Assembly (NCBI GenBank): GCA_949285835.1
Contig: CASEAR010000041.1
Location: 1 to 53,617 of the forward strand
From: an uncultured Verrucomicrobiota bacterium
GTDB lineage: Bacteria > Verrucomicrobiota > Kiritimatiellia > RFP12 > UBA3636
Reading direction: 5' to 3'
Length of the DNA: 53,617 nucleotides
A program made the translations under genes and the position numbers. How positions within the stretch are numbered: the stretch's first letter is position 1; each line of letters begins with the position of its first letter. This document shows positions 47,645 through 53,309 of this stretch, one piece after another. Below the pieces are notes generated by a model, which was not told where the DNA came from, did no database searches, and worked only from the letters and a program-made list of their open reading frames with translations.

Positions 47645-48906
47645 GGCAAGAGAAACGTCCACTAATTTTTTTTCAGAGACAGATATTGGTATTCAGGCAG
47701 TAAGTGAATATACGCATTGGAACACTTTCCGCCGAGGGATTTTCTCGGCATGTTGTTTATGATATTTTCCACTCTTCTGAGTTCTTCGCTGCTGACGCGG
47801 GAGAAGTTGGTTCCTTTTGGGAACCATCTTCTGAAAAGGCGGTTGCAGTTCTCAATTCCGCCTTTCTCGTTGGAGTCGTAGGCACGTGTATAGTAAACCT
47901 TGCACTTCAAGGTGTCCTCAAGCTTTGTCTGGTTGAGGAATTCGCATCCGTTGTGACGGACAAGGCATTGATGATAACGCTGCGTTTGCGTAGGCGCTTT
48001 AAAGCGCGGATGACTTCGGCTTGAGATACAGCATTAAGCTTCTCAACACAGTACCTGCGCGATTTGCGGTCATAGGTGCAGAGTATTCCGCCCTTGCCCT
48101 TGCTCGAAGAAAAGACGGCATCCATTTCCAGATGTCCAAGACATGCCCGGCTGTCGGCCTCTTTTGGCCGGTCGGCAATGCTGTTCCGACTAGGCACGGT
48201 TTTGGCCGGATATGGTATAATCCGAAGTTTCTTTTTCTGCCCGGGATGATATGGCGTGCCGCCATGTTTTGCCTTAAGAAGCCCCGCATCAATGATGTTG
48301 TAAATCGTACGCGGCGACGGAATGTATTTATTTTGATATTTTCTTTGAGTATCATAGAGACGCTGTAAGGAGACATTTTATCGTTGAGAATAAGGTTGGA
48401 AAATTGTTCTGCTGTGAAAGGAGACGTCTTGATCCGCGGTTTTTTGTTTGCTGCTCAGCGTGGCATTGTGTCCACCCCGCCGCCCCAGCGTCATGCCTCG
48501 ATGTAGTCGAATCTTCGTTCATGTTTGCCACGCCTTCGGATGTCAGGCGTTAAAATTGCCCCTGAGGTACGCCTTTGCAGCTCGCGTCTCCAAAGTGTCT
48601 GCGAGACGCCGTGTGTCTTTGCAAAAGCCAGAATGGAAATGCTGCCTGGCTTCGTCCTGAGCTAGTTATTCCATGCCTTGCCCAGACGTTCGCGGTCTTC
48701 AAACTTAAGATGTGCCCGTGGATGAGAATATTTGCTATACTCCGCCATGATGTTTTTCCCCGCGTGGATTGCCTTTATTAGCAGAAAGCGAAACATCACT
48801 GTTTTCCGGAAATGATCTGCCCGCACGGCGGGAATGCGCATCTCCAGGGCGTTTCTTTTCATGTCTGCAATCCTTCCTTTAGGTATGGACGTTACATTCT
48901 GCAACC
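47640..48906 (-). mobile_element. Degenerate IS30-family element, copy B (fullest copy)
   Basis: A near full-length but broken element of about 1.26 kb read on the minus strand. Imperfect terminal repeats are visible: GGCAAGAGAAACGTCCA at 47645-47661 and GCAGAATGTAACGTCCATA (reverse complement) at about 48884-48902. The transposase can be pieced together in order. The helix-turn-helix part is GKAWNN, stop, RTKPGSISILAFAKTHGVSQ. Then come the YNIIDAGLLKAK block and the catalytic core with LEMDAVF, VTTD(N)GCEF and NEKGGIENCNRLFRRWFPKG, the D-D-E triad of IS30. It ends LPEYQYLSLKKN. In-frame stops (TAG after GKAWNN, TGA after YIEA) and several frameshifts make it a pseudogene. Confidence 0.85.
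47662..48197 (-). pseudogene. IS30 transposase catalytic core, frameshifted
   Basis: Two overlapping frames encode the core. 48197-47907 gives CLGHLEMDAVFSSSKGKGG through VTTD. A frameshift near 47910-47945 then moves the reading to 47910-47662, which carries KVYYTRAYDSNEKGGIENC, RRWFPKGTNFSRV and the C-terminus. All three acidic residues survive, but in different frames. Confidence 0.8.
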
Positions 48907-50928: not shown

Positions 50929-52068
50929 ATGAAAGAATTGGCATATGTGCTGATAAATCCGTATACGATAAGAAAGTCACGTCTGGGCGGAGTAATTGCT
51001 CGTTATCTCAGCAGGACTGATCTGCGGCTTGTCGCTGCCAGGATGTTTGGCCCTAGCATGGAGTTGGCGGAGGGATATGCGCGCTGCGTCGTTGAGCGTG
51101 AAGACGGCACCCCTGAAATGAACAGGCTGATAGCAGATTACGTAACGAAGGAATACGCCCCGAATGTTTCTACAGGCCGTTCCCATCGATGTATGTGTCT
51201 GCTTTTTGAAGGAGAAGACGCCATTCGCAAAATATGGGAGGTTACGGGGTCGGTAACGCTCAGGTGGGGATGCGGACAAACTGTGCGCGAGACGTATGGC
51301 GACTATATTCAAAATGACAGCGGTGAGGTTACGTATTTTGAGCCGGCGGTTCTTGTCGGTCCTACAAAGGATTTCGTAAACAGGACACTTCGGCTTTTAT
51401 GTGAACATATACCGGGTGAGTCCGGGTTGGTGAATTCGCATAACGAAGAGAAAACACTTGTGATGCTTAAGCCGGACAACTTCCAACGGCCATCACTGAG
51501 AGCCGGAAATATAATCGACTTGCTTTCGTCGTCCGGATTGCGCATTGTCGCCACAAAGAAGTTTTCAATGACGGTCTCTCAGGCAGAGTCTTTCTATGGT
51601 CCTGTCGTCAAGTCGTTGACAGAAAAATTCCCGGTTTTCGGCGCTGCTCGTGTGGCGTCTGCCGTGAGCCGGGAGTTGGGGTTCAGCGTTACGGATGAAG
51701 AGGCTGCCGGACTTTGCACAAAAATTGCCGAACGTTTCGCTCGTAATCAGTTTGAAGACATTGTCGAGTTTATGACCGGGTACCGCCCTTCAGACGTCCC
51801 GGAACGGGAGAAGGATATCAGAGCCGGAGCGGAGTGCCTTGGACTCGTGTATGAGGGCGAGAATGCCGTTGCAAAAATAAGGGACATCCTCGGCGCGACA
51901 GATCCTAGCAAGGCTCGTCCTGGTTCGGTACGCAGGGAGTTTGGCACAAATATAATGGTAAATGCGGCTCACGCTTCGGATTCTCCTGAGAATGCCGAGC
52001 GGGAGATGAAAATAATTGATATTCTCGGGGACAATATGTCTCCGTTCATCAGGAAATATTGTTATTAA
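50929..52068 (+). CDS. Double-domain nucleoside diphosphate kinase, N-domain catalytically dead
   Basis: A 379-residue protein made of two NDK-like halves, whereas bacterial NDK is usually about 140 residues. The C-terminal half (about 175-379) has MLKPDNFQRPSLRAGNII, VYEGENAVAKIRDILGATDP, RREFGTNIMVNAAHASDSPE and the phosphohistidine His348. It carries an extra ~45-residue insertion (about 240-285). The N-terminal half (1-150) keeps the fold pattern (VLINPYTIRKSRLGGVIARYL, LLFEGEDAIRKIWEVTG, GCGQTVRETYGDYI). It lacks the KPD motif, the active histidine and the HxSDS loop, so it should not be catalytic. It may be a regulatory or dimerising half. ATG 50929 fits the domain start; yebC is 118 bp upstream. 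Confidence 0.85.
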   Translation: MKELAYVLINPYTIRKSRLGGVIARYLSRTDLRLVAARMFGPSMELAEGYARCVVEREDGTPEMNRLIADYVTKEYAPNVSTGRSHRCMCLLFEGEDAIRKIWEVTGSVTLRWGCGQTVRETYGDYIQNDSGEVTYFEPAVLVGPTKDFVNRTLRLLCEHIPGESGLVNSHNEEKTLVMLKPDNFQRPSLRAGNIIDLLSSSGLRIVATKKFSMTVSQAESFYGPVVKSLTEKFPVFGAARVASAVSRELGFSVTDEEAAGLCTKIAERFARNQFEDIVEFMTGYRPSDVPEREKDIRAGAECLGLVYEGENAVAKIRDILGATDPSKARPGSVRREFGTNIMVNAAHASDSPENAEREMKIIDILGDNMSPFIRKYCY

Positions 52069-52139: not shown

Positions 52140-53309
52140 ATGAATGAGCGTCTAAAATACATACAGCCATCGGCCACGCTGGCAATAAGTGCAAAGGCTA
52201 AGCAACTCGCAGCCGATGGAGTTCGTGTTTGTAATTTTGCAGCCGGAGAGCCGGATTTTGATACTCCGCAAATAATTAAAAACGCATGCTGCAAAGCATT
52301 AGACAATGGATTGACAAAGTACACTCCTGTGCAGGGGATTCCCAAGCTTTGTTCTGTGATATCTGAAAAATTGCGCAAATGCAATAATTTGAATTATTCC
52401 CCGGAGCAGGTAATTGTCAGCGGAGGAGGAAAGCAGTCGCTTTCGACGGCGTTTCTGGCTTTGCTTAATCCAGGAGACGAAGTTATAATACCAGCTCCGT
52501 ACTGGCTCAGCTACCCGGAAATGGTGAGAATAGCCGGCGGGGTGCCCGTTTTTGTTGAAGGAGACGAATCGGACGGCTTCCGGCTGTCGCCGAAAAAACT
52601 GGAGGCGGCTATAACGGATAGGACAGTCGCGTTTGTTTTGAACTCACCATCCAATCCGACCGGTTTAGTTTACAGTGCAGGAGAATTGCGTCAATTTGGT
52701 GAGATTTGTGTCCGCCGTAATGTATGGATTATTTCGGACGAGATGTACGAGCGCATGATTTACGGCGGGGAAAAGCATGTAAGCATAGCTTCCCTCTCCG
52801 ATGAAATCTACGAACATACCCTTACAGTCAATGGCGTATCCAAGGCTTATGCAATGACGGGATGGCGGATAGGATATGCTGCAGGTCCTCTGCCATTTAT
52901 AAAGGCTATGTCAAAGGTTCAGAGTCACTTGTCTTCTGCTCCGGCGACATTCTCTCAAATGGGGGCCATGGAAGCACTTATGAATGCAGAGAAAGATATT
53001 CAGCCTATGCTGAAGGCCTTTGCGGAGCGCAATGAGCTTATGTTCAGACTGCTGTCCGAAATCGATGGGATCAGGTGTCAGCGTCCGATGGGTGCGTTTT
53101 ATATGTTCCCGAACATATCTGCATTCGGAATGAATTCCGTGGATTTCGCCACAAGATTAATCACAGAGAAACATGTTGCGGCGGTGCCCGGAGTTTCTTT
53201 TGGAAGTCCGGAAAATCTCAGGTTCAGTTATGCCTGCGGCAAAGAGGAAATTGAAGAGGGGATGCGGCGTCTCAAAGAGTTTTGTGACACGCTTCCGCGT
53301 GTGTCGTGA
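52140..53309 (+). CDS. Class I PLP-dependent aminotransferase (aspartate aminotransferase type)
   Basis: A 389-residue fold-type I aminotransferase. It opens MNERLKYIQPSATLAISAKAKQL and has AAGEPDFDTP (substrate arginine loop), FVLNSPSNPTG, ISDEMYERMIYGG, and the PLP lysine in VNGVSKAYAMTGWRIGY. The C-terminal SFGSPENLRFSYA supplies the carboxylate-binding arginine. This matches thermophile-type aspartate aminotransferases (subgroup Ib), which exchange amino groups between aspartate and 2-oxoglutarate; related members use prephenate. 54 bp lie between it and the cmk start. Confidence 0.93.
   Translation: MNERLKYIQPSATLAISAKAKQLAADGVRVCNFAAGEPDFDTPQIIKNACCKALDNGLTKYTPVQGIPKLCSVISEKLRKCNNLNYSPEQVIVSGGGKQSLSTAFLALLNPGDEVIIPAPYWLSYPEMVRIAGGVPVFVEGDESDGFRLSPKKLEAAITDRTVAFVLNSPSNPTGLVYSAGELRQFGEICVRRNVWIISDEMYERMIYGGEKHVSIASLSDEIYEHTLTVNGVSKAYAMTGWRIGYAAGPLPFIKAMSKVQSHLSSAPATFSQMGAMEALMNAEKDIQPMLKAFAERNELMFRLLSEIDGIRCQRPMGAFYMFPNISAFGMNSVDFATRLITEKHVAAVPGVSFGSPENLRFSYACGKEEIEEGMRRLKEFCDTLPRVS

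Follow-up and report, generated by a model that had tools for sequence, protein, structure and literature searches.

A two-domain protein of Verrucomicrobiota in which a pseudo-NDK half is fused to a predicted nucleoside diphosphate kinase

Two NDK domains in one reading frame

The window, which is the whole stretch of DNA analysed (53,617 nucleotides), carries a gene whose 379-residue product is composed of two nucleoside diphosphate kinase (NDK) halves, the first without catalytic residues and the second with a complete NDK active site. This protein is referred to here as the double NDK. The features of the locus are listed below. Conservation is given for a set of 97 proteins of 330–430 amino acids that remained after exact copies were dropped (112 reduced to 97), with partial and frameshifted rows lost by length; six rows were excluded: three that repeated the window's own locus, two that duplicated other hits and one that was truncated.

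50929..52068, + strand: fused pseudo-NDK/NDK gene (379-residue open reading frame; PF00334; start common to relatives)
50929..51420, + strand: N half, residues 1–164, NDK fold without catalytic residues (PF00334 E=2.7e-6; residues 2–159 align with NDKs)
51286..51288, + strand: R120 of the N half, equivalent to the active-site arginine of the Kpn loop (kept in 93/97)
51301..51345, + strand: N-half hairpin, residues 125–139, ending in E138-P139 and replacing the histidine loop (model strands 125–128 and 134–138; 93/97)
51442..52065, + strand: C half, residues 172–379, complete NDK active site (PF00334 103.8 bits; fold alone Z 17.9)
51469..51477, + strand: KPD motif, K181–D183 (K181 in 96/97)
51607..51744, + strand: insertion, residues 227–272, lengthening the alphaA-alpha2 hairpin (long form in 92/97; helices 216–250 and 256–283)
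51970..51972, + strand: His348, predicted phosphohistidine (96/97)
52140..53309, + strand: aminotransferase class I/II gene, conserved downstream neighbour (PF00155 1.6e-73)

The ATG at 50929 (MKELAYVLINPY...) is also the start in close relatives, which suggests that the longer frame from 50839 is probably not in use. The whole protein matches PF00334 with 125.8 bits against a gathering score of 27, and the initial annotation of two NDK-like halves in one open frame was borne out by searching them separately: the first 164 residues alone match over residues 5–129 (E=2.7e-6, 27.7 bits, cut-off 27), the last 215 residues give 103.8 bits, and both halves align with solved NDKs. In profile-profile comparisons the N half matched 29 canonical Verrucomicrobiota NDKs at 97.8% over 135 columns and the C half at 98.2%. 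NDK was the sole family found in a Pfam search of the whole protein, in which DM10 was not matched. Structure comparison finds the NDK fold and a Kpn loop in both halves, and fold and active site together assign the double NDK to the NDK family. Its score against the NCBIfam equivalog for canonical NDK (NF001908) is 119.9 bits, below the 155-bit cut-off. The family name is the right one for a protein whose architecture is not that of the textbook enzyme, a blind spot in annotation.

The aminotransferase gene lies directly after the double NDK gene in 44 of the 63 loci whose downstream DNA is long enough and after canonical ndk in none of 30, counts that are not independent since many loci come from close relatives. 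A yebC gene lies upstream in the window; it was dropped as a conserved neighbour, being found in just 3 of the 57 loci with enough upstream DNA. Elsewhere in the window, what is probably left of an IS30-family transposase, its frames broken, lies on the minus strand at 47662–48376. The stretch 47662–47910 matches NF033563 (2.7e-17) with 63.4 bits, below that model's cut-off of 80, and the two adjoining frames have no Pfam match.

Catalytic residues and predicted structure of the two halves

The active-site residues of NDK, in the numbering of the Mycobacterium tuberculosis enzyme, are K10, Y50, R104, N114, H117, S119 and E128 (PMC7554756, in part). Their equivalents in the C half, read off the profile alignment, are K181, Y223, R335, N345, H348, S350 and E359, so that every one of them is present. 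The KPD motif (residues 181–183) and His348 are accordingly where they had first been noted in the second half. Y223 and S350 are found in all 97 relatives and the other five residues in 96, and on this residue content the double NDK is inferred to be enzymatically active. Every miss falls in a single row, L148 (genome G369), in which the lysine is replaced by R, the asparagine by G, the histidine by Q and the glutamate by A, while the conserved motifs of the N half are intact. No further NDK was found in that genome (80% complete), and L148 may be either a gene in decay or a double in which the two halves are both inactive.

The insertion that had also been recognised in the second half is real and can now be described as a longer alphaA-alpha2 hairpin, with helices at residues 216–250 and 256–283 of the model. 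It has the long form in 92 of the 97 rows and a short form in five; these five sit at two places within long-form groups, also in a tree built without the insertion, which points to two losses. In NDK, the alphaA-alpha2 hairpin and the Kpn loop clamp the nucleotide (PMC7554756, in part), and the lengthened hairpin of the active half would extend the wall that flanks the nucleotide.

The N half presents a very different pocket. It lacks KPD, as had been claimed for it, and reads N10-P11-Y12 at this point; the position of the P-loop lysine is occupied by N in 59 rows, T in 34, S in three and P in one, and by K in none of the 97. The histidine loop is likewise absent. The initial annotation needs one refinement in that the Kpn motif G-x-T-x-R, with R120, is kept, leaving one arginine of the pocket and no NDK active site. 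R120, E138 and P139 are each present in 93 of the 97 rows, and R25 is present in all. The three former residues are jointly missing from the same four rows (L150–L153), which belong to one genus and are best counted as one event, and whose C halves are complete. One possible reading of this joint absence is that R120 and E138 come together in the dead pocket, which the Glu-Pro hairpin would fill. The loss of the Kpn motif and Glu-Pro from L150–L153 beside complete C halves, together with the broken C half and retained N half of L148, indicates that the link between the two halves is not a strict one.

The whole chain was modelled with AlphaFold2 from 19 family sequences (pLDDT 86.3, pTM 0.84), the weakest parts of the model being the histidine loop (pLDDT below 50 at residues 342–344) and residues 111–140 of the N half (block means 68–75). 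The initial annotation of the first half as NDK-like is upheld by the predicted model, in which the region of residues 1–150 adopts the NDK fold. Residues 2–159 superimpose on solved NDKs with Z of about 15 at 2.1–2.5 Å, for example on 3evo_A (Z 15.4, 132 residues, 2.3 Å) and 4ane_D (Z 15.2, 128 residues, 2.1 Å). Folded alone, the C half (pLDDT 82.4, pTM 0.74) matches 6ay1_A with Z 17.9 over 138 residues at 2.2 Å and 40% identity. The best matches of the whole chain are NME7/FAP67 chains, with 6u42_5O superimposing on model residues 1–369 (Z 22.9, 275 residues, 3.5 Å, 22% identity), and on the strength of this superposition the two halves are predicted to be placed much as are the two NDK domains of NME7. 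In an analysis of coevolution at the interface, 4 of 156 beta2-beta2 pairs were in the top 1% (91 rows, Neff 69, no null run).

Distribution of the double NDK and of canonical ndk

The same fusion occurs in many other genomes of the phylum. Among 387 Verrucomicrobiota genomes, 169 contain the double NDK, 122 contain canonical ndk, two contain both and 98 contain neither. A double was defined as a whole-protein match at E 1e-30 or better and a canonical gene as an NDK match in a genome without a double, with the addition of the two genomes that have both; partial genes at contig ends and the one broken C half (L148) are counted among the 169. The two forms are close to mutually exclusive (Fisher p about 5e-36, uncorrected for shared descent), and of the nine genomes that carry the double and are listed as a single contig, eight have no canonical ndk. 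Nor was a second PF00334 protein found in the window's own genome, which is 91.43% complete, so that one could have been missed.

The named relatives come from metagenome assemblies labelled Kiritimatiellae, Lentisphaerae, Verrucomicrobia, Spartobacteria or PVC group, and 18 of them that were aligned share 41–83% identity with the double NDK. Genes joined in assembly, or a decaying duplicate, can be discounted almost entirely as the source of the fusion, and nothing was found in favour of either: the same full-length frame recurs across numerous separate assemblies at identities as low as 41%, which rules out an assembly artefact, and the N half retains a mean pairwise identity of 49% across 86 of the 97 rows, the sample used for identity means. 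An unrooted domain tree was built from 29 of the 97 doubles, 29 of the 30 fetched canonical loci (L075, which does not match KP[DE], being omitted) and, in addition, L158 and L058. In this tree a single branch sets the N halves apart from the rest, and the same is true of the C halves and of the canonical NDKs; the separation of N and C halves from canonical NDKs has a support of 97/69, which is not firm, and the double may have arisen either through internal duplication or from two NDKs that became joined.

The 98 genomes with neither form, exemplified by genus g9, many members of which are 84–95% complete, indicate that NDK of this family is dispensable in the phylum. They also lend some weight to the proposal that the double NDK is not the housekeeping enzyme and is instead a kinase that acts on another substrate or has another role, the balance of NTPs being kept by adenylate kinase or other enzymes. 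The window's genome encodes a protein of the adenylate kinase family, and the shortfall against the canonical NCBIfam model points the same way. Nevertheless, the intact NDK active site of 96 of the 97 relatives, a C-half fold that closely matches those of working NDKs and an occurrence nearly exclusive of canonical ndk make this proposal improbable.

Among genomes without either form, the loci L160 and L162–L165 (and also L159 and L161) encode NDK-related proteins in open reading frames of 240–403 residues. PF00334 matches the L159–L165 group over the last third of the profile only, with 22–27 bits, and L165 reaches 24.7 of the 155 bits required by NF001908. L160 and L162–L165 have in common the stretches HQFVLFLKPE, HYGVIN and NGxHLSAGPLEGM, the last of which looks like a histidine loop, and these NDK-related proteins possibly represent a divergent NDK family. 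Weak PF00334 matches in G007, G073, G169, G192, G200, G230 and G243 were considered to be other NDK-related proteins and were not counted as NDK.

Strong matches to a profile of the N half are confined to double-carrying genomes. In six canonical-ndk genomes the matches are all weak (E 8e-5 to 9e-4) and are taken for cross-hits to the genomes' own NDK. No stand-alone N half occurs among the matches listed, all of which lie in open frames of at least 364 residues. This counts against the alternative in which the chief task of the N half is docking or regulation, through binding of another protein or a nucleotide, and replacement of a partner subunit is secondary, as does the fact that the sole conserved neighbour seen, the aminotransferase, suggests no docking partner. 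The alternative draws on the strict conservation of R25 (97/97) and of E138 and P139 (93/97), which exceeds what a bare spacer requires, and on NME7, whose dead domain B is required for function and whose Arg-322 binds the gamma-tubulin ring complex (PMC13256974, in part). On balance we consider it unlikely.

Proposed function and relation to known NDKs

We propose instead that the double NDK is the organism's housekeeping NDK in an asymmetric, fused form in which the dead half serves as a permanent partner subunit, a reading to which we assign a probability of roughly two in three. The C half would carry out ping-pong phosphate transfer via His348, and the N half would be an NDK domain that has lost catalysis and been retained as a built-in partner. 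By packing against the C half it would make each chain a permanent active/dead pair, which could stand in for the symmetric dimer of ordinary NDKs. Since NDK oligomers are always based on dimers (PMC7554756, in part), the simplest role for a dead domain that has been conserved is that of a built-in partner. The initial annotation had suggested that the dead half may replace a partner subunit; this is consistent with the compact single-chain model superimposed on the two NDK domains of NME7, with the finding that none of the matches listed is a stand-alone N half and with the replacement of canonical ndk. Its other suggestion, that the dead half may sense a nucleotide, concerns a pocket that has kept one arginine and is without both the lysine and the histidine loop. 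A widespread bacterial NDK with a fused dead half would offer a natural test of the role of the partner subunit in catalysis and stability.

A bolder proposal can be offered tentatively: that a large part of the phylum has swapped the symmetric NDK for an obligate active/dead pair that is convergent with NME7. In such a pair the Glu-Pro hairpin would plug the dead pocket, with E138 and R120 together at the nucleotide phosphate site, and the dead half would control the assembly or activity of the working half.

Three known systems can be compared with the double NDK. The C half shares with canonical bacterial NDK its fold, the KPD motif, the histidine loop and the active-site residues; the canonical enzyme, however, is a protein of about 140 residues without a dead half and without the lengthened hairpin. 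The NDK of Pyrobaculum aerophilum (1xqi) is a longer NDK that can be aligned to the C half over 164 residues (Z 17.2, 2.7 Å). This is the greatest alignment length among the rows listed, and part of the insertion may therefore be common to the two proteins; its solved chain, however, has 182 residues, and so it has no dead half.

The closest likeness is to NME7/FAP67, a eukaryotic ciliary protein of DM10-NDK-NDK architecture, in which DM10 stands ahead of an active first NDK domain and a dead second one (PMC13256974, in part). Both proteins combine an active and a dead NDK in one chain, and the model predicts the same tandem packing. In the bacterial protein, by contrast, the dead half comes first and the active half second, as judged from residue content, no DM10 is matched, with NDK beginning at residue 2 of the model, and the hairpin of the active half is longer. 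The double NDK is not filed as NME7 because the domain order and DM10 do not agree. Within the open-access literature, a coverage that excludes most subscription journals and preprints, no account of a bacterial active/dead NDK fusion was found. A two-domain active/dead NDK is already known in NME7, and the bacterial double with its reversed order appears to be new, perhaps representing a second origin of the pairing of active and dead NDKs.
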